From: a virus
Length of the DNA stretch: 38,845 nt
Direction: 5' to 3' (one strand)
IMG/VR virus record: IMGVR_UViG_3300049825_000283
Coordinates: 1 to 38,845 of that record
How positions within the stretch are numbered: position 1 is the stretch's first letter; the number at the start of each line of letters is the position of its first letter. The position numbers and the translations under genes were made by a program. Shown here piece after piece: positions 5,024 to 28,048 of the stretch. Under the pieces are notes generated by a model. That model saw only the letters and a program-made list of their open reading frames with translations. It was not told the origin of the DNA and did not search any database.

Positions 5024-5443
5024 TTACCAGAGCAGGACGCTTGCTTTAAGTCCTGCGACCCATTGACGAACGCGGAAATCACGTCCACCGAACCCGCCTA
5101 GACGGATAGGGCCCAGATTCACAAAACGGTCCAGTGTGTTACCTAACGCAAGATCAAGCCCCACGAAAGGTGTTCCAGCCCCTTGCAGGGAAGTCACCCC
5201 TCCTGCCGTAGCAGAAACTTTATCCCACAAGGTCAGAATAGTTGTTTCAGCCCCGACAAGACTACGCTGGTTTAGACCGTCATATAGGTACACCACATCA
5301 GCCGTCTTGAATGGAACCGTTAGTTTCAGCGGTCCAGATTCAAAATAGATGTTGGTTTCCTGTGGTGCTGGGTCCGCCATCCCATGTGCATACTTTTGAC
5401 AGAAAACTATACATAGAGCAAGCAATATGTACATTTTTTTCAT
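5024..5443 (-). CDS. Exported beta-rich protein (outer-membrane-like)
   Basis: The start is an ATG after AAGGAGATACTTAA. Residues 1-21 form a signal peptide (MKKMYILLALCIVF then AHG). The mature part alternates polar and hydrophobic residues and ends in strands closing with an aromatic residue (VAGLKASVLLW), as in small outer-membrane barrels. It is the last gene of the late operon. A role in lysis or envelope modification fits the position, but function is unknown. Confidence 0.6.
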   Translation of the reverse strand: MKKMYILLALCIVFCQKYAHGMADPAPQETNIYFESGPLKLTVPFKTADVVYLYDGLNQRSLVGAETTILTLWDKVSATAGGVTSLQGAGTPFVGLDLALGNTLDRFVNLGPIRLGGFGGRDFRVRQWVAGLKASVLLW

Positions 5444-5646
5444 TTAAGTATCTCCTTGGGATCAAGTCCCGCGTACTGGCACAGCTTTGCTTGGACGGAA
5501 TCAACCAGTTCTTTGGCGAATTGCTCGGGAGGGATCGAGGCCGCTTTCTCCTGTCCCTCCCGAATTTTATCCGCAATCACTGGTTCAAGATCATCCATGC
5601 TTCGGATCAGATTGCCTAAGGCAAGCTTCTTGAGCCAGGTAATCAT
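5440..5646 (-). CDS. Hypothetical helical protein
   Basis: A 68-residue protein joined by overlaps to genes on both sides. It is helical and charged, with IADKIREGQEKAASIPPEQF in the middle and one cysteine. Nothing marks a function. It belongs to the lysis/envelope module by position. Confidence 0.6.
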   Translation of the reverse strand: MITWLKKLALGNLIRSMDDLEPVIADKIREGQEKAASIPPEQFAKELVDSVQAKLCQYAGLDPKEILK

Positions 5647-5969
5647 TAGGCAGTCGCAGTTCCAGCCGCGTCAATCGCCGCTTGGACAGCCGGGTTGTCA
5701 GACGCTACTTTAGCCGTGATGGCCTGGATCGCCGTGATCTGAGCTGAGACGTCAGCGGGAAGAGTCGTGGCCCCTAACTTCTCGATCAGCTTGTTAACCG
5801 CGACAATGACAGCCGCCGTCTGGGTAATATCCTCTTCCACCTTCGTGTTCAGTTCTTCAATTGCCGTGTTTAGTTCTTCGATTGTTGCCATGATGCGTTC
5901 CTCCGTTAGTTCAATTTTAACTACCAACAAAATCAGTGCGGCTGTTATGGCGAGTCCGATAATAATCAT
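5646..5969 (-). CDS. Membrane-anchored coiled-coil protein, possible dual start
   Basis: The longer form (107 residues) starts at an ATGA overlap with the upstream gene and has an N-terminal transmembrane segment (IIIGLAITAALILLVV). A second in-frame ATG at 5891 has an excellent ribosome site (CGGAGG) and would give an 81-residue soluble form starting MATIEELNT. The remainder is a Glu/Ala-rich coiled coil followed by an Ala/Thr-rich tail. Which start is used decides whether it is membrane-bound. Small coiled-coil proteins like the short form are common near phage tail and lysis genes. Confidence 0.65.
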   Translation of the reverse strand: MIIIGLAITAALILLVVKIELTEERIMATIEELNTAIEELNTKVEEDITQTAAVIVAVNKLIEKLGATTLPADVSAQITAIQAITAKVASDNPAVQAAIDAAGTATA

Positions 5970-6415
5970 GGGTTTACGATACCACCTGTTGATGTGAAAA
6001 CGTACCCATATCTTTGGCCGATTGTACTGATAACCACAGAATAGGTCTGCCAATAGGTTGTATCCCCCGCTTGCAAGCTACGGATCAAATTCAAGTCCTG
6101 CCGACGTTCCTCATCTAAGCCATTTGCAAAACCGTAGGCAATGCAAGAATCAAACGCGGTCGATGTCAATATGGGCTTCTCAACAGGAGGCAATGAAGTC
6201 CTGCGCCCCTGAATCTTGAAGTACATGTTCCCTGGGAACACAGAACTCGCGCTTAAGGCTCCGTTATAGTACGTCGTTGCGTAAGCAATGAGTTCTTTCT
6301 GAAACGCCGCCTCCTGCGCTTGTACGGTGAAATCAACCCCATGTCCAACAGAGGTTGATCCAGTGAGAAGAAGGCCGAATAAGACATATTTCCGATAGGC
6401 CTTAGGAATGAACAT
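5966..6415 (-). CDS. Exported protein of unknown function
   Basis: I choose the ATG at 6415 because AAGGAG lies eight bases upstream; a TTG two codons earlier is less likely. The 149-residue product has a basic start and hydrophobic segment (residues 6-21, YRKYVLFGLLLTG), a likely signal peptide. The mature part contains one cysteine and is mixed alpha/beta. Its first 163 bases overlap the upstream zinc-motif gene in another frame. No family is recognised. Confidence 0.6.
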   Translation of the reverse strand: MFIPKAYRKYVLFGLLLTGSTSVGHGVDFTVQAQEAAFQKELIAYATTYYNGALSASSVFPGNMYFKIQGRRTSLPPVEKPILTSTAFDSCIAYGFANGLDEERRQDLNLIRSLQAGDTTYWQTYSVVISTIGQRYGYVFTSTGGIVNP

Positions 6416-6639
6416 GGGCAAGACTCCTTTTTTGATTCGTCACAAAACGGGATAAATTCTTGCGACAAATGCCTGTGTTCCAGGTGACGACAGACGCACT
6501 TCTTCTGGACTCGCTCAATGTATTTCCGACACGCACAGGCAATCTCATTTACGCCCCCACAAATCCACGCTGAATTGTGGTACTCCGAATGGTCGATTTG
6601 CTCATGACCGCATTTGCATAGAATTGTTGGATCATCCAT
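6253..6639 (-). CDS. Protein with two zinc-binding Cys/His modules
   Basis: I start at MDDPT. The first about 75 residues hold two similar modules: CKCGHEQIDH ... C ... CAC, then CVCRHLEHRH ... C ... CPC. Each could bind a zinc ion. The last about 50 residues are basic, lack that pattern and run across the next gene's signal-peptide coding region in another frame. The tail may be read-out rather than functional. It lies just after the DUF5675-like gene. Confidence 0.5.
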   Translation of the reverse strand: MDDPTILCKCGHEQIDHSEYHNSAWICGGVNEIACACRKYIERVQKKCVCRHLEHRHLSQEFIPFCDESKKESCPCSFLRPIGNMSYSAFFSLDQPLLDMGLISPYKRRRRRFRKNSLLTQRRTITEP

Positions 6640-7075
6640 TTTCCCAGTCTTCCGCTTTGTATCCCCCCACAATGGTGAGGTACAAACGTCCTTCTTTCAA
6701 TAGCTCCCTGACTCTTGGAATAACAAAATTGTTTAGGGCCCTCTGGCTGTCTAAGATGCGGTCTTTGGCTTGCTCTAGCCCGACAAGGATGCACCCCTGG
6801 CTGTCTTCTGCGGTGTTCCCTCCGTGAATGAATATGCCCGTATAAAATGGAACATTGAGCAAATAGGGGTATTCTCTCCCTGTGCTTCCAAACTCCTGCA
6901 TAATTATCTCGTAGCGTCCTGCGGGAATAGCCGTAATCCCTGCTTCTTTGTGCCGCCTCACGGTATCTTCCAGCGTGTAGCAGATCATCGACTCGCCATT
7001 AGTATCTAACAAATCCCCAATGGTGGATTTATCCGTGTAGGTGTGGCGTTTAAGGATGAGCTGGTTTTCAGACAT
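6632..7075 (-). CDS. DUF5675-family protein, putative peptidoglycan-related
   Basis: I start at MSENQ, overlapping the previous gene by eight bases; a longer frame has no ribosome site. The 147 residues follow the DUF5675 pattern: CYTLEDTVR, then TAIPAGRYEI, LLNVPFYTGIFIHGGN, AEDSQGCILVG and a closing beta-strand. The H-x6-D-S-x-G-C arrangement (His84 to Cys95) recalls the catalytic motif of L,D-transpeptidases, so it may act on peptidoglycan. That link is inference. It is the closest thing to an endolysin in the lysis region. Confidence 0.75.
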   Translation of the reverse strand: MSENQLILKRHTYTDKSTIGDLLDTNGESMICYTLEDTVRRHKEAGITAIPAGRYEIIMQEFGSTGREYPYLLNVPFYTGIFIHGGNTAEDSQGCILVGLEQAKDRILDSQRALNNFVIPRVRELLKEGRLYLTIVGGYKAEDWENG

Positions 7076-7422: not shown

Positions 7423-7431
7423 ACGTCCTCC

Positions 7432-7692
7432 CTATCTATGGGGGAGCCTCTCCGAGATGATGATTCTAAACTCCTCTAACTCATCGACCATCTTGGCTAA
7501 GGCATCCGCCGTCTTATTTTCTGCAATGGCCTGACTGGTACGTAATTCCTGCGTTTCATTGTCTTTTTTGTATTTGTCCCAGCCGAGCCATAACACCAAT
7601 AATGAGAGAAGCGCATCTTTTGGCAATTCGCCGAACTTGATTCCAATCTTTAAAATTTGGTCTATGGTTTGCCCGAAAGCTGACTCGATCAT
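7432..7692 (-). CDS. Holin candidate
   Basis: An 86-residue protein with one hydrophobic stretch (ALLSLLVLWLGW, about residues 27-38) followed by a charged coiled-coil tail ending in Arg. It overlaps the preceding exported protein by ATGA and opens the lysis/envelope module. Small size, one membrane segment and position are what suggest a holin; there is no specific family match. It could also be an unrelated membrane adaptor. Confidence 0.5.
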   Translation of the reverse strand: MIESAFGQTIDQILKIGIKFGELPKDALLSLLVLWLGWDKYKKDNETQELRTSQAIAENKTADALAKMVDELEEFRIIISERLPHR

Positions 7693-9776
7693 TTGTAAGT
7701 CCCTCTCCCTCTGAATATCCCATTCCCCCTAAAAGCCCTTGGCAAGCTCCCGTTGGCTGGAACAGTGCTGATGCTGATTGGAATCAAGCTCCAAGAATTG
7801 ACAAGCGTGAACCCGGATGTTTCTGGGTAACGAAATGCCAGGTAAAAATTGTTGTCAGAAACAGTCACCACGGCAGATGAGAAAGCCGTCGTATATGGCG
7901 TGGATGTAAGTTTGGCCACGAAAGCAGTTGAGGAAATAATCGTTGTGTTTTGAGACTCAATCGCCTGGACTCTGTTTGTTACAGGGCTTTCGTCCCAGGC
8001 ATAGTTGACCTTCAAGGCATAGCTCCCGTTTGGAACAACTGCCGAATAAGCTCCGTCTGCAATCCCATGCCTAGCTGTGTACCAAAGGCCAACATCCGTA
8101 GTCCCCGGCCATGCCGCTTGGGGGAAACTCATGTCGTCTTGTCCGTACCACGGAGGATTCATCCCGACAGCATCAGCGAACCAAAGGTTCCCCGTAGCGT
8201 CTGGCCCATAGTTTGAGGCTGAATAGGGAATCACAGGGCTTGAGATGGTGGACGCCTTACCCCCCACGTCCACCCGTATCCCATTCGTCGAATAGACCAC
8301 CAGGGGGAAAAATACTGAGTTTGTGGCATCGGCCCCGGTCGGGGTAATAGTGACTGTGGTGACCTGCACTTGGTTGTTCTGTGCGGAGGGCGGGGTATAG
8401 AGACAATCCGACGTTAGACTTCCTACCGTAGGGGCCATGGTACAGCTTACGGTTGTCGTGGTTGCCCCGTTCACCCAATAGGGGATTTGGAATTGGGGGG
8501 TTCCCGCCATGACGTTTAACGCCCCATCGTTGGCTGGGAAGGCGGGGTTCTTCCATCCAACTGTGACAGGCTGAAGAGCGATATGGATCGTTGTGCTGGT
8601 GTGGTTTACGGTATCGGATGCCAAGACAATCGCGAAGTCCACGGGGGTTGTGTTTGTGGAATTGGGGTACTTTACCCGCCCCGTCGCGCTTGAAACCATA
8701 AGGCTGGACTCGTCCACTATCTCGAAATCCCCGGAGTCTAAAGCACTTCCCGGAATCTCGTTGATCAGCGCGGCGTATGTAGAGGTATCTGTGAAGACAT
8801 CCCCCATCGACTGCACATGGAAATTTATCCCGCCATCGGACATAAACATTCCGTGCTTTTTTAATGCCCGTATGACGGCCAATGCTGGGGGGCTAAACCC
8901 AGCTTCGCTAAATGTTGATTTCAGTCTAAACCTAGAACCATAGGGGACGCAGGTTGCGAGCGTCCCGCAGTTGGCCGCGAAGTTCGTTCCAGGCCATGAA
9001 AACCCGCTGTAGTTGTACCCATTGGATAGAGTGAACCGAAGGGCATGGTTCACTTGACCCCTTTTCATTTCGTCATAGCGTAAAGCAAGCGGCTGGAGAT
9101 AGAGTCCAGCGGCATCCGTCGCTCCATCTCCGTTTGCCAATTGGTAGGACGTTCCATCCCATCTAACACCAGACTGTGCATTGCAGGTCGGGCACCCGTT
9201 TACCGTGGCCGTTCCTACGGGGTAGTAGTTATATATTTCAAAGAATTCACAGTTGTCTGTATTAAGCCCAAGCTGGTGCCGATCCTGGGCGAAATAATCG
9301 GCAGGATAAAGATTGGTTTCTACCCCGCGATATGGAGCGGCCAATATGGGGTATTTCTCGCCATCACTACTGTCGGTGTAATAAAACTTCATGGTGTCCG
9401 ACGATGTGGCACTCGTCATTATGTTTACAGGGAATTGATCGTCGGTGAAATTAAGAGGTATCCCTGATCCGATATTCGCCATTCGTCCGGCACTGTTCGA
9501 ATCCACCGGAAGACTCGTGATGTCCACGTTGTAAATATGGTCATTGGGGACTATCGGACACCCAGCAATTTGGTTTCTTACCGTCATTGTTGAGGGGGCG
9601 GTATAAAGACCCCCGGAAGTTATAGACCCTCGGCTTCCAGCGATCATGGTGTACGTTACGGTGTTTGTTGACGAAAACTGGATTGTGTTCCCAAGCTTAA
9701 CTGTGGCCGTCGAAGGAGATATCGTCGGCCCTGCGAAGACTGGGATCGCCATCAATAATAGAATGAACTTCTTCAA
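7689..9776 (-). CDS. Large exported protein of a conserved secreted bacterial family
   Basis: I choose TTG at 9776: it overlaps the previous stop (TTGA), follows GGGAGG at ten bases and begins a clear signal peptide (MKKFILLLMAIPVFAG). The 695-residue product has a short Ig-like start (PTISPSTATVKLG). Residues about 165-328 then carry DRHQLGLNTDNCEFFEIYNY, DAAGLYLQPLALRYDE, VNHALRF, WPGTNFA and GSRFRLK. I recall this signature from secreted bacterial proteins of unknown activity. Beta-rich domains follow. Its place after the fibre genes suggests a surface-binding or glycan-related role. Confidence 0.65.
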   Translation of the reverse strand: MKKFILLLMAIPVFAGPTISPSTATVKLGNTIQFSSTNTVTYTMIAGSRGSITSGGLYTAPSTMTVRNQIAGCPIVPNDHIYNVDITSLPVDSNSAGRMANIGSGIPLNFTDDQFPVNIMTSATSSDTMKFYYTDSSDGEKYPILAAPYRGVETNLYPADYFAQDRHQLGLNTDNCEFFEIYNYYPVGTATVNGCPTCNAQSGVRWDGTSYQLANGDGATDAAGLYLQPLALRYDEMKRGQVNHALRFTLSNGYNYSGFSWPGTNFAANCGTLATCVPYGSRFRLKSTFSEAGFSPPALAVIRALKKHGMFMSDGGINFHVQSMGDVFTDTSTYAALINEIPGSALDSGDFEIVDESSLMVSSATGRVKYPNSTNTTPVDFAIVLASDTVNHTSTTIHIALQPVTVGWKNPAFPANDGALNVMAGTPQFQIPYWVNGATTTTVSCTMAPTVGSLTSDCLYTPPSAQNNQVQVTTVTITPTGADATNSVFFPLVVYSTNGIRVDVGGKASTISSPVIPYSASNYGPDATGNLWFADAVGMNPPWYGQDDMSFPQAAWPGTTDVGLWYTARHGIADGAYSAVVPNGSYALKVNYAWDESPVTNRVQAIESQNTTIISSTAFVAKLTSTPYTTAFSSAVVTVSDNNFYLAFRYPETSGFTLVNSWSLIPISISTVPANGSLPRAFRGNGIFRGRGTYK

Positions 9777-11110
9777 AAGAAGGTCAACCTCCCGGTCCCA
9801 GACGTTGCTGTCCAACTCCCTGATCCAGAGGTGAAGGAAATCGGGCCATTTGATGTACTTCCCCCGCCACCCCCTGCACCTGTTGGCGTAAACTTGCTTG
9901 AGATGGAGGAGTAATACATCGTCCCTGATCCAGACGGAGAATCCCCTAGATAGGCAATCGTGTCGCTTGAAACTGTCGTAATTGTATGGGTGTTGTCGCA
10001 GAACGTCCCTGTCGAGGCCGCTGGAATGGTGATAACCATACTGGCATCCGTTACGCCGTTCTTTCGGAACTTGAGCGTGGAAACTGTCGAGCAATCGTTC
10101 TGAGCGGTCGTCATACAGAAGTTGCTAAGTGTTCCAGTAGATAGGGCAGGAAGAAGGTACTCGTCCCCTCCGAAGGACAGAGCAGACTTATAAGGGATCG
10201 TCCAAGTCTCCCCGGCGTTCTGAGGTTTGTCGTCTGTGCCCACGGCGTACTCGTATTCCGATCCGCTGTTCACAAACTCAAGCGAAACGAAGTTGACTTT
10301 GATGAGATTGGTGTCCCCCTCATCTCCACCAGTGGCGGAGAGAGCGATAGTAACCGTATCCCCTGCCACCACGCTTACCGTGGTAGTGGTCTGCTGGATA
10401 AGGCCCCATTTGCCGGATACCGCCGCTGTCGATAGGGCGGTAGGAACCCCGTTTTTGCTCAAGTAGAAATTGGTGTTGTGCGTCCTCGAATTAGTGGAGA
10501 CATAGACGGCCAGGTTCTTGAACGTTCCAGCGGTGCGCATATAGTGGACGGCGTGGCTTTCGTAGAAGTTTAGCCCAAGGATGCCCGTCACGTTTGAGTA
10601 GTAGGGCTGATATCCATTCGTGTTGTCGAGGCCGCCAGCCGGAGCCGCCGGACTGAATCGCTGGTAGTAAGACCCGTCGTCTGGCGTGAAATTGATCGAA
10701 TTGGCAACTGGTAAAAGGGTCGTTCCCGCTCCCGTCACAAGCATATAGCTCACTTTGTCGCCAAAATTGATGTGGTCGGTGTGGATAGTATCGCTTCCGA
10801 TCTTGACCCCAGCTGGAAGTACGACCTTGCTGTTGACCGTCGCCCCATTCACGCGCAGGTAGAAAGTGCAGGATCCGGAAAGCGAGTTGTCCTCTAGCCG
10901 AACGTACATCTGGGAGAAAGTGCCGGAGCTGTAGAACGGAACCTGGACAGCGACTTCCGCCGCCGCACTTGAAATAACCGTATCGCCAACGGGCATATAG
11001 ACTGTCTGATTCGCCGCTACCGTTCCGTAGACGTGACTGTGGGAGACTAGAGGAACCGTCGCGCTAAACGAGAGGGTGGGAAGAAACAGGAGAACAACCC
11101 ATTTCTTCAT
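9773..11110 (-). CDS. Exported beta-rich fibre/adhesin-like protein
   Basis: The start is the ATG overlapping the previous stop (ATGA) and opens a signal peptide ([17 protein letters not shown]). The 445-residue product is Ser/Thr/Gly-rich, with repeated beta-sandwich-like stretches and a GAGGGGGSTS linker near the C-terminus. The final about 25 residues look like a small separate tip (GPISFTSGSGSWTATSG). It probably forms part of the host-binding apparatus. Confidence 0.6.
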   Translation of the reverse strand: MKKWVVLLFLPTLSFSATVPLVSHSHVYGTVAANQTVYMPVGDTVISSAAAEVAVQVPFYSSGTFSQMYVRLEDNSLSGSCTFYLRVNGATVNSKVVLPAGVKIGSDTIHTDHINFGDKVSYMLVTGAGTTLLPVANSINFTPDDGSYYQRFSPAAPAGGLDNTNGYQPYYSNVTGILGLNFYESHAVHYMRTAGTFKNLAVYVSTNSRTHNTNFYLSKNGVPTALSTAAVSGKWGLIQQTTTTVSVVAGDTVTIALSATGGDEGDTNLIKVNFVSLEFVNSGSEYEYAVGTDDKPQNAGETWTIPYKSALSFGGDEYLLPALSTGTLSNFCMTTAQNDCSTVSTLKFRKNGVTDASMVITIPAASTGTFCDNTHTITTVSSDTIAYLGDSPSGSGTMYYSSISSKFTPTGAGGGGGSTSNGPISFTSGSGSWTATSGTGRLTFF

Positions 11111-11859
11111 CGGACGGTAATATTCCCTGTCCCTGGCGTTGTTTTTATTGATCCGGTTCCCGGAGACGTCGAGATAGTCCCTCTTGCGGAAGAAGATACC
11201 CCTTTGAATAAAACGAGAGCAGTCCCCCAATTATTAGACCCATCAAGTGTCCATGTTCCATTTGTCGCTGTTGGTGTAGCAACAACCTTATCTTCGATTG
11301 ATATTTTTGTGGTTACCTGGGTTCTCTCGGTATACCCTGCCCCGGCAGTAAATTCTGCGTCACCGTTTACGCTACAAGCCGAAAATGCCAGAACATCGCT
11401 AACTGTAGGAGTCGCTGACCCCGTATCTGGCGTCGTACTGCTTCCAATCGCCGAACTCGATACATCAATGGAAGCAGAAGGGATTCCGCTGTATTCAGCG
11501 ACAATCCAGCGGAGAGACTGTGTCTCGTCCATGTTTATCGTGACGGTATTGGCTCCTCCCGTTGGAGAGTTCGCATACCAAACGCTGACCGTGTATCCAG
11601 CGGCATCCCCGACCCGCTTCCCCTGTTGCCAGGTATTGCCGAGAGTGTCTGTTATCGAAGTCACACTGGCTGTAGCACTTCCATGCCTTGCGGCGACGAT
11701 TAAAAGACTCCCCGCCGTGACATTGCTTGTATACGCCAGAGTATCCGACGCTGGAACCCCAGAATCTTCCCCGTTGCTTTGGACATAGGCAATCGCCGCG
11801 AAAGATGGAGCCGAGAAGGCCAGAAGTCCAAAAACGGACAGACGGATTGCGTTTTTCAA
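11107..11859 (-). CDS. Exported beta-sandwich protein, phage/bacterial surface family
   Basis: A TTG start overlaps the previous stop (TTGA) and follows GAGGTG. The first about 22 residues are a signal peptide ending in FAA. The mature sequence has the order I know from a widespread family: [53 protein letters not shown]. It ends with a GTG/TPGTG linker-like tail. The 250 residues probably form one jelly-roll-like domain plus a flexible end. A fibre or adhesin role is inferred from the neighbours. Confidence 0.6.
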
Positions 11860-14261
11860 TTTCGCACCTCGACGTATCCGTTGTTAATTGTGATGCTATT
11901 GACCGTACTTGCTGTTCCGTATAAGAGGGTCCAATCTAACCGTTGGTCCGCCGTCGTATCGACGGTGTTGCCCGTGTTAAACAGAGGCCAGGTCGAGAAG
12001 GTCGCCTTCGTGTTTGAGGTCAAGAACTGGCCCGTCGTGTAAATCTGGCCTGATGCTCCCGTCACCCGGCACGTCATCATCACGCGTAATTCCCATATTC
12101 CGTTCCCTGGGCCGGTTGCGACACCAGCGATGGCCCCAGACGACGCCACAATCGTCGACCCGATCCTTATCGTCTGCTGTAGGGTGTTCGTGCTGTTGTG
12201 CGTGTTGGTTCCCATCATCACCATGTAGACCGTTTTCCCAACCGTCCAGAAGTTGGCAGGGAAGGTCAGACCCCCGACGCCTTTTGCTGGATCAAGCATA
12301 TAGCCCGTCGTCGCCGAGTTGAGATGGTTCGAGCTTCCCGTCACCGTCCACATCGTTCCAGATATCGTCTGTGTTGCCCCTGATACGACGGTCCTTATGG
12401 ATTTCTGCGTCGAATCGTTCCATGTTGTGCCTTCTACGTATTTCCCAGATGGAGCCGCCGTCGCCCCAAGAGTCAGCGAAACCCCAGACAAATTCAAGTT
12501 GGACACATTGGTCACGGTCATTGAACTAGTGACGTTCAATGTCGATAGGTACGTCTCGTAGGTTCCGCTCGATATCACGATGGAGCTTGTGTAGACGTTC
12601 CATCCACCGACCCCCGCGAACGTGCCAGTCGAATTACGCTGAACGCTCCGGTCTGACCCTCCAGGAGCCCCGGACCCGCCCTGCGTCGCCGCGTTGATCG
12701 TCTGGTTAGGCCAGGTTCCTGTGATGCTTGTGATGTTCGTTCCGGCTACGAGTCCAGGGGAAGCGGTTCCTGTTCCACCGTTTGCGACCGCCAGGAGGTT
12801 CACGACTTCCGAGGAAACGTCAATCTTGGAAGCTGTTCCTAGCCCTTTCAGCGCATTGGTTTTAACGAACTCCGAAGCGTTAAGGCCAGACACCGTAATC
12901 GTCGAAACCGTCAGTCCGTTCACCGTGGCAGATGTCACGCGAAGCCCGTTGACCGTCATAGACGATTGGCCGAAGTTCTGTGTAGCCGACCATTGTTGTG
13001 CGACATCCAGGTAGGCGATGTTGGTCGGAAGTTCTCCCGACGTAATAGAAGGACCAAGCAATGTGAAGCTTGATCTGTCGATGTCTAGGGTGAGAGTGGC
13101 CCCGGCGCTCCCAGCTGATCCACCAGTCAAAGGGCTCGTCGTCTGGGCGTTGGCAACATAATTCCCTGTCGTTTCAGCTCCAAGGCCAACGGACGGACCC
13201 AGAAGCGTCACACTGGAAGGATCAAGATCAAAGTTGGCGGTTGCTCCCCCGGCGAGCGAAATAATGAACTGCGACCCATTTGCGTTAATGATCGCCGTAG
13301 GACTTGAAATTTGAACTCCTCCGTCGAATATCGCTAAACTGGACGCGCCCCCTCCTCCTCCTCCAGCCGGAGTCTCCCACGTCCCATCGCCACGCCAAAA
13401 TGTCGAGGACGTAGCACTAGCCCCACCGTTAAGACTGTTAACGGACAGATTCCCCGTTACTCCCGTCGAAAGACTGACAATCTTGTTATCAATGGCGGTT
13501 TTGAGCGTATTCGTGGATGTAGCGATAGCCGTTTTGCTGGATTGAAGATCAGCGTTAATCGTGCCAGTCGCTAGACTGACGGAATTAATGTTTGTTTGAA
13601 GCGTTGTGGTAGTGACAGCAATAGCGGTCTTGGAAGATTGAAGGTCTGTATTCATCGTGCCAGTTGCAAGTTGAACCGTTAGAAGCGTAGTGTTGATCGA
13701 ACCTGTAGCAACCCCGACTGCGTTTATATTTGCCTGCAACGTGGTCGTCGTCACCGCGATGGCGGTCTTAGAGGCTTGCAAATCCACGTTAATGGTTCCG
13801 GTCGCAAGCTGGACCGTTAAGAGTGTCGCGTTGATCGTTCCGGTCGCCACGCCCACCAGATTGATTTTCGTTTGGAGCGTGGTCGTCGTAACGGCAATAG
13901 CGTTCTTGCTCGTCTGAAGGTCGGAATTGATGCTCCCCGTTGCAAGCTGAACGGTTAAGAGGGAGGCATTGATCGTCCCCGTATCTCTGGCGATCTGAGC
14001 AATGTTAAAGTTGTTCCCCTGTAATGTAATGCTTGAAGGATTTGCCGCCCAAGAAGCCGTAGCACCTCCAACCAAACTGACAGAAAAAGCAGAACTTGCG
14101 TTTATTATGGCGGTCGGGCTTGAAACTTGAACCCCGTTGTTAAATACAGCAAGAGAAGAGGAACCGCCACCCCCACCCCCTCCAGTTCCAGACCCAGGGT
14201 TAAATATCCCCGACGCTAGAGATAACGCAGGGATGAATAGAAGAGATAGGGCCCTTTTCAT
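11856..14261 (-). CDS. Tail-fibre-like protein with signal peptide and internal repeats
   Basis: The 801-residue protein overlaps its upstream neighbour by ATGA. Residues 1-17 look like a signal peptide and are followed by a polyglycine hinge. Residues about 36-80 and 308-355 are two copies of a SLAVF...GVQVSSPT module. Residues 93-265 are 46-residue repeats. The C-terminal about 160 residues end in a binding-type domain with [20 protein letters not shown], a pattern common at phage fibre tips. It likely forms a trimeric fibre. A signal peptide on such a protein is unexpected. Confidence 0.7.
13467..13985 (-). repeat. 138-bp (46-residue) tandem repeats inside fibre gene
   Basis: Three full copies and a partial fourth encode units of the form [26 protein letters not shown]. 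The pattern suggests a repeated coiled or beta-helical rod whose length could vary by recombination. The copies are clearly related but not identical, so they have had time to diverge. Confidence 0.75.
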
Positions 14262-14596
14262 CTAGCCAGCTCAATCCAATAGACCGTTCCTGAGATTTGG
14301 GCTGTTCCCGACTGGCTGATAACGAACGCTTCAGCGACATCCGTCGTAAACCACGGCTCCCCCGTAATATCGAAGGTAATCCCGCCGTTGGCCCCCATCG
14401 CCATTGCTCCAGATAACGAAGTCGATCCTCGTTTAAAGGTCAGGTTCGTTGCCGCGCTACAGACCAGCATCAACCTATGAATTAAGACTCGTTTCCCAGA
14501 AGCCGCCGCCACAACGGTGTTATCCCCTGTGTTTGAAAAATCAATCACCTGCGACTTGAGATGCGGGATTGTCGAATATAAGAACTGTGCTCCCAT
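14258..14596 (-). CDS. Small beta-sandwich tail protein
   Basis: The 112 residues follow a pattern I know from many phage tail regions: [41 protein letters not shown], then [19 protein letters not shown]. It lacks a signal peptide, unlike its neighbours. It lies between the two large fibre genes and may be a receptor-binding tip or adaptor. The ATG at 14596 is 12 bases after the previous gene's stop. Confidence 0.65.
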
Positions 14597-14607: not shown

Positions 14608-17364
14608 CTAATTGCACGATTGAGTCCTGGAGCTTATAGCGACAAAAGAATTCACGCCGCCCGTGCTTGTACAGATCGTATCCCGCACACAATCCGAACA
14701 AGCGTAAGAATCCCCAAAAACGGGCCGTGGGCTTGAGATCGCTTGGATTTGAGCTTTCGTCTTAGATTGGAATTGGACCGCTCCGCCAAATGCTGAAACA
14801 CCCATCGTGGAAACCGTTAAGTGATATTGGCCCGTTCCGGTCGGGGCGGTTCCCACGACCATGTCGTAGGCGTAGGCCGAACTGCTTAGGACAACGAGTT
14901 TCGAGTTGGCATTATTTGTGACCGTACCCACCAGGACGGAATATTCAAAAGCGGATTCCGCGTTATCGAGTGTGCCAACCGTCGTGGTGGTGAAGCTGTA
15001 GTAGCTCGGTCCTGCCAGGATACGTTTGGCGTTTAACCCGGAAGGGCTATTATCAATCGGGCTCGCCAGGGAAACCCCGTTTACCGCACGAAGAGCCATT
15101 CCTCCGTTGAAAGTTCCATCGTGATAAATCTGCATCCCGAAACCGTCATTATCGCGGTTCATGTTGATGTAGGGAGGCCCGATCATTCCGCTTCCACCGA
15201 CCTGAATGATTTGACCGGAGATCTGGCCGTTCACAAACAAAGTCGAATTTCCAGAATATGAGGGAGTTGAAATAGCCAGCTTCGATAACGTCATGGTGCT
15301 TCTAGACAAATCCCAGTAAACCCCCGACGAAGTAACGGTCGAAGCCGTCATCGAAAGACTTCCGGCAGACAGATTTGTCGCTGTCATGCTCGTCACCGTC
15401 ATGGTGCTGGTCGCATAGTCGAATAAGATCGACCGTCCCGTCATGTTCGATGTCGTCAGGGTTGTCGAGGTGTCGTACATGTTCCAGAACCCTGATCCGG
15501 CCAGCGTCCCCGTAGAGTTGTATTGAATGCTCCTATTTGACCCACCAGGAGTAGAACTTCCTCCTCCTGTTCCAGGAACGCCGCCATCGACAAAAACCCC
15601 GTTCGTACTGCTGGCGACAAGCATATGTCCAACTGTTATCGTCGAGGTTGTCCCTGCGATCTTAAAAGGCCCAATATTCGTATCCCCGGCATCTAGCGTC
15701 GGCCATCCTGCCCCAGTCAAAACGATGGATTGAGCGGTCATCGTTGAACTGAATACGCCCGTGGAAGATTGGACTCCAAACTTTGAATTAAGGCCACCTG
15801 ATCCCGTCACCGTAACGCTGGTTAATGAAGAATTGAAGGCTGTGGCAGATATGGTCGAAACAGATAGACCTTTGGCGAGATTAAAAGTCACCGTAGCGGG
15901 TTCTACGTTATAGCCTCCGCTCCCGCTTCCTCCCGTATTGTTATCAGCGGCTAAAACCATCGACATCTTCCCGTTGGAGTCTGGGCCTAGGACTTTGATA
16001 ACGGGAACTGTCCCATCGACAGAGACGATATTTGTTGAGTTCATCAAGAAATACGAACTTTGGTGCGTAATGGTAGGGCTGGAGGCAAGTTCTGTATAAC
16101 TCGAATGATTCCTTACATCGTAAAAACGAAGCGTGGATGAAGACAAAAGACTTATTCCGTAATTGGAGGCAGTTCTGACGATGACGGAGGGAACACCGTT
16201 AGCGTCAATGTATTGCATCCCTGCCGCGACAGCGGGATTAAATCCGTCCGTGCTATTGGAGAATCTAAGCCCTGACCGTTTACTCCCGCCGACATAGAAT
16301 GGGATTTCGGCAAAAGAACCAATGGACCCGTTCGAGACAAGCCGTATAAATTCATCCGCTGTTATCGCACTCCCAAGCCCTCTTACTTCCAACCCAGTCT
16401 GAGAAAGAGACGTGTTCCCTATTGTTGACGATGATCCAACGTAAAGAAAGTCAGGATACGCTGTCGCTCCGGCCTGAAGCGAAGATATGTTTTGGATGTA
16501 GTTGGTTGCTCCACCCGCTAGAGGCAATGGGCTCCCATCAGTGATCGTGATAAGGGCTGTAGCTCCACCTGTTAACGTGGCTGTAACATTGGGTCCAACG
16601 AAGTTCATTAATTGGGTCGGGCTTGAAACTTTAATCCCTTCATCGAATACCGCGAGGAATGGCGTTGCTCCGCCTCCCCCGCCTCCACACACCGCCCCGG
16701 TAGTGGTTAGTCTCCCCCCGGCGGCAGTTTGAACACATTCACCAGATGGCAGATTGGCGACAGAAAGATTCCTAATTGTCGCGCTAGATGTGATGGTGGC
16801 GGTAGACGCGCTGAATACTCCGTTATCTACGTAAACCCCATTTTGAGCATTGATTCTTAATTGGCTTTGTCCAGAAGTTGATCCCCCTCCAAGATAAGAC
16901 TGAGAATCTCCTGCAGTATTTTCAATCACGAAGAAGGCCCCTGTCTTGGCCGTCACATTCCCCTGGAAACTAGAACCAGCACTGGTCACGCTAGTACAGT
17001 TCTGCCAATTCGAGTCACAGGCGTACCAAGCTCCACCAGTTCCACCCCCAGACCTAGCCGGACCAAGGACCGCCAAACGATCTGATCCCGTAAAAGATGG
17101 CGTAGCGATCCAGACCCGGTAGAACGTTGGACTTGAAATAGAAAGAGGGCCAGCGAAAGAGTTTGTCCCAGTCCAGGTGTTTGTTCCAGAAAGAACGCCA
17201 ACCGATGAATCAATAACATTGAAATTCTGGTTTACGGCTTCTCCCCAACCTATCTCATGAACGCTCGGTTTGTAAAGATTAAGCCTCGTGGTGCTGGTCC
17301 CAGCATGAACAAACCCACCAGCCAATCCAAGCAGAATCGCTACTTTCTTTAAGAAACGCCGCAT
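14608..17364 (-). CDS. Large tail-fibre-like protein with signal peptide
   Basis: A strong AAGGAGT site precedes the ATG. Residues 1-21 form a signal peptide (MRRFLKKVAILLGLAGGF then VHA). Next is a phage-fibre-like start (TTRLNLYKPSVHEIGWGEAV). The 918 residues alternate Ser/Thr-rich beta repeats (SSTMTV-type), polyglycine hinges and one SSPT module shared with the next fibre gene. The C-terminus is Cys-containing (ACSDCVRDTIC), possibly disulfide-linked. It is probably a fibre shaft; export of such a protein is unexplained. Confidence 0.7.
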   Translation of the reverse strand: MRRFLKKVAILLGLAGGFVHAGTSTTRLNLYKPSVHEIGWGEAVNQNFNVIDSSVGVLSGTNTWTGTNSFAGPLSISSPTFYRVWIATPSFTGSDRLAVLGPARSGGGTGGAWYACDSNWQNCTSVTSAGSSFQGNVTAKTGAFFVIENTAGDSQSYLGGGSTSGQSQLRINAQNGVYVDNGVFSASTATITSSATIRNLSVANLPSGECVQTAAGGRLTTTGAVCGGGGGGATPFLAVFDEGIKVSSPTQLMNFVGPNVTATLTGGATALITITDGSPLPLAGGATNYIQNISSLQAGATAYPDFLYVGSSSTIGNTSLSQTGLEVRGLGSAITADEFIRLVSNGSIGSFAEIPFYVGGSKRSGLRFSNSTDGFNPAVAAGMQYIDANGVPSVIVRTASNYGISLLSSSTLRFYDVRNHSSYTELASSPTITHQSSYFLMNSTNIVSVDGTVPVIKVLGPDSNGKMSMVLAADNNTGGSGSGGYNVEPATVTFNLAKGLSVSTISATAFNSSLTSVTVTGSGGLNSKFGVQSSTGVFSSTMTAQSIVLTGAGWPTLDAGDTNIGPFKIAGTTSTITVGHMLVASSTNGVFVDGGVPGTGGGSSTPGGSNRSIQYNSTGTLAGSGFWNMYDTSTTLTTSNMTGRSILFDYATSTMTVTSMTATNLSAGSLSMTASTVTSSGVYWDLSRSTMTLSKLAISTPSYSGNSTLFVNGQISGQIIQVGGSGMIGPPYINMNRDNDGFGMQIYHDGTFNGGMALRAVNGVSLASPIDNSPSGLNAKRILAGPSYYSFTTTTVGTLDNAESAFEYSVLVGTVTNNANSKLVVLSSSAYAYDMVVGTAPTGTGQYHLTVSTMGVSAFGGAVQFQSKTKAQIQAISSPRPVFGDSYACSDCVRDTICTSTGGVNSFVAISSRTQSCN

Positions 17365-20974: not shown

Positions 20975-20982
20975 AGTTTCTC

Positions 20983-21231
20983 CTAAGCCGCCGTCCATGC
21001 GATGTAGTAAAGAACACCGTTTATTTTTGAATACAGACGCGGAGGACTCACGCCTTTATCGACGACATATGTACCTTCCTTCAAATTCCCTAAAACTGGC
21101 GGAGTGCTCCGAGCAGGTGGCATATGGCCTTCTATTGCATAACGAAAAGCCGCCTGAACGTCTGTGAATGTTCCCGCCTCATCATTAAAAACACTGTTTT
21201 TAAGCATGGGAGGACGAGTCTTAACGGTCAT
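20983..21231 (-). CDS. Hypothetical tail-region protein
   Basis: An 82-residue protein overlapping the large propeller protein's stop by four bases. It ends with a beta-rich segment (PPRLYSKINGVLYYIAWT) that resembles the end of small tail-associated proteins. No family is recognised. Confidence 0.6.
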   Translation of the reverse strand: MTVKTRPPMLKNSVFNDEAGTFTDVQAAFRYAIEGHMPPARSTPPVLGNLKEGTYVVDKGVSPPRLYSKINGVLYYIAWTAA

Positions 21232-23951
21232 AGAATTGATCCTCTCTGGGGGCTGGTACGGTGATACTCGGTAATGCTGTCAACGCTGAAAGGTTGGTCC
21301 GCCGCGTTGATCCGAACCCGAAACCGCACCTGATCCCGCATATACGAGATGTTCAATCGCTTAGTGAAGCTCAACGATTCTCCTGTTTCCCTGGTCAAAT
21401 CAATGCTCTTGTCGGTCCAGTTCAGGCCGCTATCAACGGAGTACCCGACCGTTAAGTTGTAAGGCCCCGATCTGTCCGTTTGAACCAGAAGCTCCCTGCC
21501 CTTCAGGAAGAAATTGTCCTCCGAGAAATCTTTGGTTTCGTAATAAGAATCCATCGCTGATCCATTCTTGGAATACCCAGTTTCTAGCTGATAGAGAGAG
21601 CCATCAACGCTGGAACCTGCGATGAAGATGTCTTGAAATCGGCAGAAGGTAAGAAGTGCGAAGTCTTTGGTATGCCAGGGACTATCGAACGTGGACTTCC
21701 CACGGACGATCACGATATCGTTATTGTCTGCCGATAGTGTCGCCGCCGACAACCAGTACCGATTAAGCCAGACAAAAGATGCGACGTTCTGCAAAACAGA
21801 AGCCCCTGAAGACGACGACAGAACCCAGTTTACCGTGAACCCTTCGACAGTCGGGTGCTGTTCGTTCGGGTTTTCTTGTGAAAACTCTATCTTGATCTGA
21901 ATAAATGTATTTGTGATGGCTGTGCTAGGAACAGCTCCGGGTGCGATTTCCGTCCATGATTCCGCTGAAACCCCGCCGCTAGTGGACGCCGCCCGGAAAT
22001 AGACACGAATTGTATGCCCTCCACGATCCATCGGAACCTGGATTGCCGCCCACTGAAGGATATTCCCTCCTGTATCGTGAATTTCAGAAAGATACGTTCC
22101 CCCCACATAGACTTTATCAATGAGGGGAGTACTGACTCCCGTAGATGAGTAAAGGTACGCTCCCCATCTCAGATACCGTTTAACGGTGGAAGTGATTTCC
22201 TGTCCGCTTGTAAGGTTAACCTCGGCATCCCATGTTGACCCGTCAGAGGAGGATTGGGTGAAGAACTGGTACGCTTCCCCGTTCGCCTCAATAAAAGCAA
22301 TCAGAGTCCCGTAAGTCCTAGGAACAAATCCGTAATCTAATGCCCTGGAAGTAAACTTACCGTCTGGCTCATACCCCGCCGAATACACTTCTATCTCTGT
22401 GCATACAATTCTCGACCCGTTGTAAGAATGGAAGAATAACCGTACATATCGAGCAGATACCGTCGTAAAATCCTTCGTATAGGTGGTTGCTGAAAAATCG
22501 GTCGTCCCATCAGGAAAAAGTTCTGATCCTGCATCCGTCCACGAAGAACCATCCGTAGAAACCTGGAATCCCGTGTTATCCATCCTCCCTGTTGCGAAAG
22601 GAGCCACGTGAGAAAGAGCTAAGTCCTTTGCAACCATTCGCCCAATCGACATCACAGACCCCAGATCAATTCTGAACTCGCACGAAACGAAGGACCCCCC
22701 TCCTACTAATAAGCCAACCTGATTGGACGTGTTCCCGTCAGTAAAATAAGTGGTTGATCCAATAACAGAACTTCCTGCGCCACTAGCACTGGCTGTCTTC
22801 CCGACAGAAATAAGCGACCCTGGGCTCCCAGAAGTAACCAAATCAAGCTCAAGGAATCCCGCCGATCCTGCTCCCGAAATCGCTACAACATCATCTTTCG
22901 TCCCAGCATTAAAATCGGTTTCCGTATCGTCAGCAGGAGCTAAGGTGAGGTTGTCTCCTGTGGTTAAATTGGCAGGAACCGTCCCTGTGTCAAAATCCGC
23001 TTCCTCGGACACATTCCAGAATTTTGAGCTTAACAGCGGCTGTTGGAGGTTCCTGAAAGAAAACACCCCGTCTTCCGTAGACCCCGTATCAATGATGTCT
23101 GAGATACGAGTCGCATCTTCCCCGTCGAACGTATAGAGCCCATCCACTCCAATAAAGTGAACGAGGTTGTCGTTGATCTGAATGGATTCCTGGAAGCGCG
23201 TTCCAGTTGAAGATCGGGTCTTCGTGCGAGTGTAGGTGTCTTCGTCGTACCCCGTAATGCGCCAAATGGAATACTGTTTGGAACAAAACAGAAAACCTCG
23301 ATAAACGAATATCCCTGTCCCCTGGTCGGCATCTCCCTCGGATATCTGAAGTTCGTTATCCGCTGGCCACGCGGAAGCGTTGTCTGGGGCTATTTCCGTT
23401 CCTGAAGAATCAGCCAAAGCAGAAAAACGGCAAGAAGATAAGTCGCTTGCGATCCCGTAAATCCATACTCGTTCGTCGTGGTATTCAATGTATTTCCCGG
23501 TCGGAACATCGGGGGTCAGTCCCGATCCATTTAACTGGACATAGTTCGTTCCATCCCATGTGGCCACGTCATCTGATCCATTCGTAAACCAAACCTTGTC
23601 TCGAATGACCTTCGCTCGAAGCTGGAAGAAGGCCGAAAGCCCAGACTTGATTACCGTGTAATTCACGTAATCAGTTGTCCACCAAATAGATTCGTTGTTG
23701 GAGACGATCAACTGGCTTGATCCATCGGATGTCTTAAAGAAATTTAAAAGAAGCGTAGCGGGGCCGGACGGGATATCGCCTAGTTTGGTGTATCCATTCG
23801 CCGTGACAATGGACCCAGGTTTCTCGTCCATCCAGACGTTCTGGTTCCTGGGGGAATGACCATCGGGCAAACGCGCAGGGGAGGCCGCAGTGTTCAGCGT
23901 CCCCCACTTATCAATCACGAACTGTTTAGCGTCTTCTAATACCGCTGTCAT
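21228..23951 (-). CDS. Large tail protein: beta-propeller plus discoidin-like domain
   Basis: The 907 residues start with an acidic N-terminus. Residues about 40-290 are repeated WTTD/VWFTNG/WIYG blades typical of beta-propeller tail proteins in short-tailed phages. Residues about 385-526 read like an F5/8-type C (discoidin) carbohydrate-binding domain, with FTDGNTSN and SARYVRL. Beta-rich modules follow. It probably plugs or stabilises the tail tube and may contact sugars. No signal peptide is present. Confidence 0.7.
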   Translation of the reverse strand: MTAVLEDAKQFVIDKWGTLNTAASPARLPDGHSPRNQNVWMDEKPGSIVTANGYTKLGDIPSGPATLLLNFFKTSDGSSQLIVSNNESIWWTTDYVNYTVIKSGLSAFFQLRAKVIRDKVWFTNGSDDVATWDGTNYVQLNGSGLTPDVPTGKYIEYHDERVWIYGIASDLSSCRFSALADSSGTEIAPDNASAWPADNELQISEGDADQGTGIFVYRGFLFCSKQYSIWRITGYDEDTYTRTKTRSSTGTRFQESIQINDNLVHFIGVDGLYTFDGEDATRISDIIDTGSTEDGVFSFRNLQQPLLSSKFWNVSEEADFDTGTVPANLTTGDNLTLAPADDTETDFNAGTKDDVVAISGAGSAGFLELDLVTSGSPGSLISVGKTASASGAGSSVIGSTTYFTDGNTSNQVGLLVGGGSFVSCEFRIDLGSVMSIGRMVAKDLALSHVAPFATGRMDNTGFQVSTDGSSWTDAGSELFPDGTTDFSATTYTKDFTTVSARYVRLFFHSYNGSRIVCTEIEVYSAGYEPDGKFTSRALDYGFVPRTYGTLIAFIEANGEAYQFFTQSSSDGSTWDAEVNLTSGQEITSTVKRYLRWGAYLYSSTGVSTPLIDKVYVGGTYLSEIHDTGGNILQWAAIQVPMDRGGHTIRVYFRAASTSGGVSAESWTEIAPGAVPSTAITNTFIQIKIEFSQENPNEQHPTVEGFTVNWVLSSSSGASVLQNVASFVWLNRYWLSAATLSADNNDIVIVRGKSTFDSPWHTKDFALLTFCRFQDIFIAGSSVDGSLYQLETGYSKNGSAMDSYYETKDFSEDNFFLKGRELLVQTDRSGPYNLTVGYSVDSGLNWTDKSIDLTRETGESLSFTKRLNISYMRDQVRFRVRINAADQPFSVDSITEYHRTSPQRGSIL

Positions 23952-25496: not shown

Positions 25497-25499
25497 TAC

Positions 25500-25913
25500 T
25501 TATTGATTCTGTAGGTTGATGCCCTTCTCGTATGTAATCAACGCCTGGTTAAGCCCAGCCGAATGAGACGCAATCAAGCCATTTTTGAAAATGACCGGCG
25601 GATCAAACGTATAGACCGTATTCACAGTCGCTACCCCATACAAGCGTGTTTTCAACTGAGTCGTTCCAGGACCAGAAAGACCCACAATGCTGTTCGAGTC
25701 GAACAAAGCAATGTAGTCTCCAGCCGTCATGGTCGACAGATTGACTTGATACAGCGTCACTGCCGTAGACGACACTCCCACCAACGCCGCATTGGTCGTA
25801 AAACCAACCATCGTTGCCGGTTTTGCACCGCCACGAGCCGAGGCCGCTTGCGACGTAGACGACATCGCAAACACCATGCCAATTAAGAAAGACAATCCAA
25901 GTAGTTTCTTCAT
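25500..25913 (-). CDS. Exported protein beside the capsid gene
   Basis: I start at the second ATG because AGGAGG sits six bases before it; the first ATG directly touches the site. The first about 23 residues form a signal peptide (MKKLLGLSFLIGMVFA, ending SQA). The mature about 114 residues are beta-rich (TLYQVNLSTMTAGDYIALFD) without cysteines, like a capsid decoration protein. Why a presumed head protein carries a signal peptide is unclear. Confidence 0.55.
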   Translation of the reverse strand: MKKLLGLSFLIGMVFAMSSTSQAASARGGAKPATMVGFTTNAALVGVSSTAVTLYQVNLSTMTAGDYIALFDSNSIVGLSGPGTTQLKTRLYGVATVNTVYTFDPPVIFKNGLIASHSAGLNQALITYEKGINLQNQ

Positions 25914-25927
25914 GGTCATCCTCCTAA

Positions 25928-26794
25928 TTAAGCGCGAGTGAGGTAAGCGATACCGTGGTTGTCACGGAGTTCGCCTACGCCATAGAGCGCATTAGCCGCG
26001 TAAGGGGTCGAGAACTGCGTCCGAGCGAATTTCTCCATCTTGAACTCTCTCTGCATAACAATGCCGAGACATTCACGATGCGCCAGGTAGTTGTACCGCG
26101 CACCACCAGAAGTCGCCACAACCGACGTGACGGTCACCGGGGTACCGTACAACCCAACAATCCGGCCATCCGCCACTTGAACGCCCTTGGTGAATCCAGT
26201 CGTGTTAGCAAGCGTGAACTTGTCAACCGCCAGGATGTCCGAGTGCGCCGAGGGACAAATAACCCAGTTCCGATCTTCTTTCGGCACTTCGCCGTCGTCT
26301 AGAACGCGCTGGCAATACAAAATGCCCGCGTCCGTAAACGCTGATCCGTTGTCACCGAAAGGCGTGTTGACCGTAAGGCTAGTAGCCAGAGCCGCCACGT
26401 TCGTGTCCTGGACCGCCGAGATCGACTTGCCAAACGCATCAGCAAGTTCTTCATCGAAGTTCAGCACAGACTGTTGACCAGCAATGTCTACGACGTTTAC
26501 GACAGCACCTTTCCACCTGTCAACCGTGATCGTCGCCTGAGTAGGCGTGATGACCTGATTAGCAAGCGTTCCATCAGCGGTCGAAATGTCTCCAACCGTG
26601 ATAGAAGGGAAGATTTGGAATGTGACCCGATCTCCCGCTTTGGTGATGTTTCCCTTAACAAGCGCGTCGCCCTCGACGGCGTTTAACGCAAGTTTCCAAA
26701 CTTTCGAGGATGCGTACCGAGCTTTGAGAGCTTTGGCACGTAACCATGCGGGAATCGCCCCCGACTGTGATGCTAATGATGTTTCGTTAGCCAC
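25928..26794 (-). CDS. Major capsid protein
   Basis: The 288 residues have the layout of a short HK97-fold coat protein from P22/N4-type short-tailed phages: a helical N-terminus (AWLRAKALKARYASSKVWKL), DRVTFQIFPSI, ITPTQATITVDRWKGAVVNV, NFDEELADAFGKSI, VICPSAHSDIL and a C-terminal GELRDNHGIAYLTRA. It starts with GTG after AAGGAG. It follows the scaffold gene, the usual order. Virion protein abundance would confirm the role. Confidence 0.8.
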   Translation of the reverse strand: MANETSLASQSGAIPAWLRAKALKARYASSKVWKLALNAVEGDALVKGNITKAGDRVTFQIFPSITVGDISTADGTLANQVITPTQATITVDRWKGAVVNVVDIAGQQSVLNFDEELADAFGKSISAVQDTNVAALATSLTVNTPFGDNGSAFTDAGILYCQRVLDDGEVPKEDRNWVICPSAHSDILAVDKFTLANTTGFTKGVQVADGRIVGLYGTPVTVTSVVATSGGARYNYLAHRECLGIVMQREFKMEKFARTQFSTPYAANALYGVGELRDNHGIAYLTRA

Positions 26795-26817
26795 TTTAGT
26801 GGCTCCTTATAAGATTT

Positions 26818-27639
26818 TTATCTTATTCGGCCTTCCGCGTAGACAGAACGAAGTTCTGCCTCAACATCGGGAGTAAGCTTACTTGGGTTGAGTTCCAGAT
26901 CTCTTACCCAGGCATCCATCTCACCTTGAGAATACGTCCTCTTATGAGAAGCACCCGGAGACTGGCCTACTGAAGGCATTGAAGCTCGCGCCTTCAGATC
27001 GGATTTATCGGATATCCCTTTGCGCTCTTTCCACAGAGCTAAAGCCAGACGCGCGGCACGCATCGGCGGTTGATCGTCAAGTTCTTCGTCACGAAGAATA
27101 TCTCGGATCTCCTGGACATCATCTTCCGTCATCCCTTTCTGCGACCGAACAAATTTGGCGGCATCCCTTAACTCTGCGGATTGCGCCTCGGCTTGCCGTT
27201 CTTCTTGCCGAATCCGTTGGAAGTTCTCCAACATCTTCTGATTCTGGGCTTCAAAGTAAGCGTCCGGGTCACTCCACAAGTCAGGTTTAGTCTGCGGCTG
27301 TCCAGTTTTTCCGCCCTTCAGTGCTTCGAGGAGTTGCTGTTTCTCAGCGTTGAGTTGCTGAATCTGGGAATCTCGTTGACGCCGATCTTCCCGCAACCGC
27401 TCGATATCTTGTTTCCATCGGGGCTTGTTTCTAGACGCTTCAGACTTTCCACCTTCGGCTTCATCATCAGGGAGGGTTCGGCCCTCTTCAGCGACATTGC
27501 CGTTAGTCTTCGATGTGTCACCACTTCCAGGGTCAGCGGGCCCTGTGCCTGTCGAAGCAGGAGTTTCTTTAGTTTCGGCTGTTCCCGGTTGATCGTTGAT
27601 AGGAGCATCAACGGTCCCGGACGTTATGGAATCACTCAT
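26818..27639 (-). CDS. Scaffolding protein
   Basis: I start at MSDSIT, which has a GGAGGG site nine bases upstream. The 273 residues are strongly acidic and Pro/Gly/Thr-rich at first, then a long coiled coil (RWKQDIERLREDRRQRDSQI), then a basic and helical end. This composition and the position just upstream of the capsid gene are characteristic of scaffolds, which guide head assembly and leave before packaging. Confidence 0.75.
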   Translation of the reverse strand: MSDSITSGTVDAPINDQPGTAETKETPASTGTGPADPGSGDTSKTNGNVAEEGRTLPDDEAEGGKSEASRNKPRWKQDIERLREDRRQRDSQIQQLNAEKQQLLEALKGGKTGQPQTKPDLWSDPDAYFEAQNQKMLENFQRIRQEERQAEAQSAELRDAAKFVRSQKGMTEDDVQEIRDILRDEELDDQPPMRAARLALALWKERKGISDKSDLKARASMPSVGQSPGASHKRTYSQGEMDAWVRDLELNPSKLTPDVEAELRSVYAEGRIR

Positions 27640-27685
27640 CGGGGGATTCCCTCCACGCAAAGGCCCGTAGGCCCGATTTTCACTT

Positions 27686-28048
27686 CTACTGACATCGGAA
27701 AAGGATCGTCACGCCAGCGGCATTATTTTTCAGAAACGACAGCCCGTTAGGGAAGTCGGTGTCGTAGTACCGACAGGTGTTAGTCGCCGCATCAATCGTT
27801 TCTATAAATTTTGAATTCCCGACCTGCGTCCACGACGAATTCCAGACTGTCATGCTGGCGGAAGCCACCGCAAAGTCCGTGCAAACTCCATGCAAAAAGG
27901 CCCGCTTCGCATAACTCGTGGGCCCCGCACAAAGCGGCGTAAGAACGCCCACCGTCGCCTTAGTGCTAGACGATTGCCATACATCCACCGCTTTAGCCGA
28001 GGATGTCCATAAACCTAAAAGACCTAACAACAAAACGATTTTCTTCAC
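27686..28048 (-). CDS. Exported cysteine-containing protein between portal and scaffold
   Basis: A GTG start overlaps the previous stop (GTGA) and follows AAGGAG at eight bases. Residues 1-20 form a signal peptide (MKKIVLLLGLLGLWTSS, then AKA). The mature about 100 residues carry four cysteines (LCAGP, GVCTD, NTCRYY, FRCQ), which could form two disulfides outside the cytoplasm. Nothing in this part of other short-tailed phages that I know is exported, so this is odd. Confidence 0.6.
   Translation of the reverse strand: MKKIVLLLGLLGLWTSSAKAVDVWQSSSTKATVGVLTPLCAGPTSYAKRAFLHGVCTDFAVASASMTVWNSSWTQVGNSKFIETIDAATNTCRYYDTDFPNGLSFLKNNAAGVTILFRCQ

Follow-up and report, generated by a model that had tools for sequence, protein, structure and literature searches.

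The window analyzed here, the full 38,845 bases of the uncultured virus record IMGVR_UViG_3300049825_000283, carries a minus-strand late operon in which the fiber-like genes and two small genes beside the scaffold and capsid genes encode predicted Sec signal peptides. The operon encodes a terminase, a portal or connector, a scaffold-like gene, the major capsid protein, an adaptor-like protein, and a nozzle-like protein, together with internal proteins, a glycosyltransferase-like gene, five fiber-like genes, and a lysis/accessory block. TerL, portal, capsid, and adaptor follow one another in podovirus-type order (phrog_2, 332, 267, 399). A nucleotide search among phages returned no match to the window, and searches of Pfam and PHROGs gave no clear family for most of its signal-peptide-bearing proteins.

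The genes of the putative head and tail core lack signal peptides: the terminase large subunit (30170-31567; phrog_2, 4e-35), the portal or head–tail connector (28341-30173; phrog_332, 2e-17), the scaffold-like protein (26818-27639; assigned by position and composition, with no PHROG match), the major capsid protein (25928-26794; phrog_267, 6e-18), and the 907-aa tail nozzle-like protein (21228-23951; a weak phrog_511 match plus position). As the original prediction had noted, small signal-peptide-bearing proteins flank the scaffold and capsid genes. SP1 (120 aa; 27686-28048), a predicted exported jelly-roll protein with four cysteines, lies between portal and scaffold and begins MKKIVLLLGLLGLWTSSAKA^VDVW, where ^ marks the predicted cleavage site; SP2 (137 aa; 25500-25913; MKKLLGLSFLIGMVFAMSSTSQA^ASAR), likewise a predicted exported jelly-roll protein, directly follows the major capsid gene. 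Farther along, the start of the 918-aa tail fiber FIB1 (14608-17364) is overlapped by the glycosyltransferase-like gene (17349-18062), and its signal peptide, MRRFLKKVAILLGLAGGFVHA^GTSTTR, leads into a canonical tail-fiber N-terminus. The fiber block continues with fiber-like FIB2 (801 aa; 11856-14261; cleavage predicted around residue 17-18), FIB3 (250 aa; 11107-11859; predicted to be exported, with a TTG start coupled to the FIB2 stop), FIB4 (445 aa; 9773-11110; a predicted exported fiber-like protein, ATGA coupled), and FIB5 (695 aa; 7689-9776; predicted to be exported, MKKFILLLMAIPVFA^GPTI, TTGA coupled). Between these exported fibers stands the conserved 112-aa p112 (14258-14596), without a signal peptide. 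No fiber-like gene lacking a signal peptide was seen in the window; because every such gene in the operon bears one, no other receptor-binding protein is apparent. Signal peptides are also predicted for SP8 (149 aa; 5966-6415) and SP9 (139 aa; 5024-5443), which lie in the lysis/accessory block.

The nine start codons concerned were confirmed (GTG at 28048; ATG at 25913, 17364, 14261, 11110, 6415, and 5443; TTG at 11859 and 9776). At seven of them the reading frame overlaps the preceding stop codon or gene end, by a few bases in each case, and a strong GGAGG ribosome site stands before 25913. Working without signal-peptide information, from start codon, ribosome site, and spacing only, a gene caller chose the identical nine starts. 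We then scored N-termini with a rule that requires a net positive N-region, a core of 8–12 residues without charged or strongly polar residues, and a short c-region, and that further demands small residues at −3 and −1 and no proline at +1. The rule called all nine proteins and no other late gene, in line with the basic start, hydrophobic segment, and small-residue end described in the original prediction; its count of "about eight" needs correction, since nine were listed and nine are called. Its assignment of all of them to the virion operon is less clear for the genes starting at 6415 and 5443 (SP8 and SP9), which lie downstream of a phrog_1501 (lysis-type) gene.

On a 49-kb E. coli K-12 segment, the same rule called six of six known exported proteins; its false calls there were the membrane proteins TolA and YbhI and, weakly, BioD (3.94, below the score cut-off of 4.1 applied in later tests). 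Of about 52 structural proteins used as controls, drawn from T7, Pelagibacter phage HTVC111P, and Vibrio phage 1.206.O, none was called (9 of 34 late genes versus 0 of 52, Fisher p = 1e-4), nor was any of the 29 proteins of the Tunturi_3 late module. When the first 44 residues are shuffled in each of the 34 late genes, 0.56 calls are expected, against the nine observed. Elsewhere in the window, 4 of 113 remaining open reading frames pass the rule, among them a plus-strand gene at 4116-4643.

The same pattern is present in related phages, kept at the same positions in 14 related contigs. The capsid protein finds relatives at 51–63% identity, and the portal alignment adds a few contigs; single-sequence scans with FIB1 and portal found no relatives, whereas the capsid profile and portal alignment succeeded. 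Wherever SP1 is covered (14 contigs), it bears a signal peptide (borderline in the G002 copy), as does SP2 in 15 of 15 contigs (a count that includes two genes at first overlooked by the gene caller) and FIB1 in each of its ten orthologs, while terminase, portal, scaffold, capsid, adaptor, and nozzle have one in no contig. Contig L054, held out when the idea was formed, shows the same SP1 and SP2 behavior. Start sites were set by hand after inspection in four relatives (two in G007 and one each in G001, G006, and G008) and are not independent of the signal peptides there; G011 and G012 are near-duplicates. Sequence identity is 28% in the signal-peptide region versus 39% in the mature part for SP1, and 33% versus 36% for SP2. 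The signal-peptide region is thus no better conserved than the mature part, yet its physical pattern is kept, a mode of sequence divergence typical of signal peptides. Taken together, the signal-peptide observation is genuine, far above chance, and conserved.

FIB1 offers a link between a signal peptide and a virion part. Directly behind the signal peptide, its ten orthologs share the motif TTRxGLxxP..WG..N..xID (predicted mature N-terminus, (A)xTxTTRxGLxxP...WG...N..xIDSS), and the same domain opens gp19 of Sinorhizobium phage phiM5, gp112 of Tunturi_4, and the fibers of three Manatee Spring phages. In phiM5 (residue 2), Tunturi_4, and two of the Manatee Spring phages the domain begins at residue 2-3, and none of these fibers bears a signal peptide. 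With the FIB1 of G011 as query, phiM5 gp19 and Tunturi_4 gp112 each match at E 0.01 and ctvy9321 at 0.001; the BLAST hits to so short a domain have modest E-values (0.001–0.04), and it is the clear motif alignment that bears the case. The gp19 protein, which belongs to a podovirus-type tail module, resembles mature FIB1 in its N-terminal domain (TxxLTKPExGxxxxxWGxKxNxxxDxID) and differs in having no signal peptide, and its record annotates detection in the particle proteome. The FIB1 signal peptide has thus been added exactly before a normal virion-fiber start. Virion membership of FIB1, as a true tail-fiber relative, is therefore supported by homology. For a signal-peptide-bearing protein of 401 aa in relative G013, the PHROG matches are a tail spike (phrog_4636, 4e-19) and a virion structural protein (phrog_6002, 5e-17). 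A glycosyltransferase-like gene precedes FIB1 in G004, G011, G012, and G014 as well, and from this gene fiber glycosylation is possible.

For SP1 and SP2, virion membership is supported by position and predicted fold. In their AlphaFold2 models (mean predicted local distance difference test, pLDDT, 80 for SP1 and 77 for SP2), a helix at the N-terminus leads into a beta sandwich of eight strands, and the structures that these models match, at middling Z, are jelly rolls: nucleoplasmins, the disulfide-linked Ena pili, the cement protein of Helicobacter phage KHP40, and the HFTV1 turret. We took the nucleoplasmin matches as generic jelly-roll similarity. The KHP40 cement protein (7dou), a small jelly roll of comparable fold, is a middling match (Z 6.5–6.6) and at most a putative relative of SP1 and SP2. 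The fold fits a capsid-side decoration role, being compatible with it rather than proof of it. The two proteins may be distant paralogs (hhalign 80%, partly due to shared signal-peptide character); SP2 also resembles many small proteins of uncultured tailed phages, and a comparison of SP2 with p112 gave no support for a relationship. SP1 occurs in tandem copies in some relatives, two in G011 (L042/L043) and G012 (L047) and three in G008 (L032).

The cysteines of these proteins are consistent with folding in an oxidizing compartment. SP1 has four conserved cysteines, and because the G004 copy has lost the second and third jointly, the likely pairs are C1-C4 and C2-C3, which suggests two disulfide bonds. 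Across the family, exported proteins longer than 200 aa contain 1.10 cysteines per 100 aa, and non-exported late proteins in the same size class 0.45 (p = 1e-7); even counts outnumber odd ones 42:10 among exported proteins (46:10 in another count over all contigs, 27:10 without SP1) versus 31:52 among non-exported ones. We gave content and paired loss more weight than parity, because parity fades once SP1 is left out and does not reach significance in the window by itself, and we count the cysteine enrichment as supporting evidence only.

Less can be said from homology about the rest of the fiber block. Residues 68-371 of FIB5 are about 30% identical to hypothetical proteins of Streptomyces and Kitasatospora plasmids (E 4e-26); as annotated, these relatives fail the signal-peptide rule and were rejected as proof of an exported origin. 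Fibers sharing segments with FIB2 in Flavobacterium elemoA, Bradyrhizobium ppBjS10J-1, and ctKR88 have no signal peptide. A sequence search of the PDB with three of the fibers gave no useful match, and no Pfam S74 domain turned up among the window fibers at E-values to 0.1, nor among ten proteins of relatives at values to 0.01. The p112 protein is 47–53% conserved in four relatives, in none of which does a signal peptide exceed the cut-off; it provides an internal negative control and is possibly a cytoplasmic partner.

Export of the signal-peptide-bearing proteins is strongly supported by these sequence features. Building on it, we consider it on balance probable that this clade of short-tailed type builds its virions in two compartments, with exported appendages attached at lysis. 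The fuller version, to which we give about an even chance, is a lineage in which head and tail core are cytoplasmic while the fiber set and the capsid-side jelly rolls are Sec-exported, oxidized in the periplasm, and added to the particle at lysis. Terminase, portal, scaffold, capsid, nozzle, and internal proteins would form DNA-filled heads with a tail core in the cytoplasm. All fiber-like proteins, as well as SP1 and SP2, would be made from the same late operon as Sec preproteins, pass the inner membrane, and lose their signal peptides to signal peptidase I. They would then fold in the periplasm, some with disulfide bonds (most clearly SP1), until lysis brought both pools together and the fibers and jelly-roll proteins could attach. 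Cleaved FIB1 could still dock on the tail, because the N-terminal domain that remains is the one with which ordinary fibers begin at residue 2. What we infer is that the proteins are actually exported and cleaved, form disulfides, and enter the virion by attachment at lysis, and that the host is diderm. Of the three options offered by the original prediction, which also named a novel assembly route, export with attachment at or after lysis fits best, given the fiber homology of FIB1, the PHROG matches in G013, and the lack of a lipobox or recognized surface-anchor domain; display on the infected cell is a possibility chiefly for SP8 and SP9.

Several observations weigh against this two-compartment reading. 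The clade is known from uncultured contig sequences alone, and a search of 84,980 genomes with the capsid profile and FIB5 found no host relatives. Exported fibers would be useless unless enough of them stayed near the head at lysis. In the window itself FIB2–FIB5 have no clear virion homolog, and the fold matches of SP1 and SP2, being middling, say nothing of function. The SP1 copy of G002 fails the signal-peptide rule through charged residues in its c-region. The cysteine signal comes from the relatives, whose orthologs are non-independent samples, and partly from SP1; the window alone is not significant (four even and three odd counts; 0.78 versus 0.71 cysteines per 100 aa).

An unlikely alternative is that the proteins are exported and never join the virion, and that their target is instead the infected cell or debris from it, where they would serve in adhesion, in exclusion, or to block receptors. 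Known exported phage proteins include endolysins with signal peptides (PMC8951688) and, closer to such a role, exclusion lipoproteins (PMC11893012). SP8, SP9, and the plus-strand protein at 4116-4643 are encoded outside the fiber block, and SP9, in which amphipathic strands precede an aromatic last residue, ends as small outer-membrane barrels do. Extended to the whole set, this explanation meets the N-terminal domain that FIB1 has in common with a fiber found in phiM5 particles; no lipobox cysteine occurs in any signal-peptide-bearing family protein listed, nor was an anchor found at the level of Pfam; and it would put all fiber-like genes outside the virion, which would then lack a receptor-binding protein. 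For SP8 and SP9 the matter differs. Because they are located in the lysis/accessory block, their membership of the virion set is uncertain and a virion role for SP8 is doubtful; they are probably separate exported envelope proteins, and may serve as envelope or exclusion proteins. An ortholog of SP9 is present in G013.

Less probable still is that the N-termini escape cleavage and stay in the particle as membrane or virion anchors, which might, for example, insert into the membrane of the next host. Five of the nine do have a hydrophobic run of 17–23 residues without a charge, and cleavage sites are predicted by rule only, with a strict AXA motif at residues 14-30 in just 17 of 67 cases; most of the N-termini, though, have short cores and small-residue ends, the mature start of FIB1 coincides with the residue-2 start of ordinary fibers, the signal-peptide-bearing proteins are richer in cysteine, and the divergence noted above is typical of signal peptides. 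Very improbable, finally, is that the fiber genes were taken from exported bacterial adhesins and retain a useless signal peptide while assembly stays cytoplasmic: FIB5 shares a domain with bacterial plasmid proteins, and Bdellovibrio has phage-like fibers with signal peptides, but SP1 and SP2 beside the scaffold and capsid genes keep theirs in every contig covering them, a useless signal peptide exporting virion parts should vanish quickly, and FIB1 has a phage-type N-terminus.

No viruses are commoner than tailed phages, whose assembly is taught as taking place entirely in the cytoplasm. Our search of open-access papers found no description of a set of tailed-phage fiber or decoration proteins with signal peptides. 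If the two-compartment reading is true, part of the particle would be completed outside the cytoplasm, in an oxidizing space; fibers could use disulfides, avoid premature contacts, and tie assembly to lysis, and Sec function would be among the limits on phage production. For annotation, virion proteins with signal peptides may pass for host or cell-surface proteins.

Among known systems, the nearest case that works in a like manner is bacterial: the MAT fibers of Bdellovibrio are phage-tail-like, trimeric, made with signal peptides, and exported (PMC10769870). In MAT fibers a beta-rich domain of about 130 aa comes immediately behind the signal peptide. They differ in being used in predation and in that many carry the S74 domain not found in the fibers scanned here, although 8 of 21 MATs lack it (PMC10769870). 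Tunturi_4, a cultured tailed phage of the Acidobacteriota host Tunturiibacter (PMC11924767), has two tail-module proteins with clear signal peptides, gp113 and gp114 (L063:4946-6313 and L063:6313-8619), which makes the idea testable; it is a siphovirus with a different genome, with only two such proteins and none beside the capsid gene, and our search of the main text of its description turned up no virion proteomics (PMC11924767). The nearest cultured capsid relatives, Pelagibacter phages HTVC111P and HTVC112P (24–26% identity), have a similar head gene order, but HTVC111P has no structural protein with a signal peptide.

Two further groups of proteins merit brief description. Outside the late operon, the 175-aa protein at 4116-4643 (+) has a clear signal peptide, MKRAIMTLVLMLGVLGKTLA^GNEHGH, and is probably truly exported, possibly as an outer-membrane or exclusion protein; it contains a short collagen-like repeat and amphipathic strands. 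In relatives, predicted exported proteins of about 250 aa (L022:1793-2560, L024:909-1655, and L029:14391-15158) end in a glycine-rich linker followed by a K(M/L)xxMERxE-like tail.

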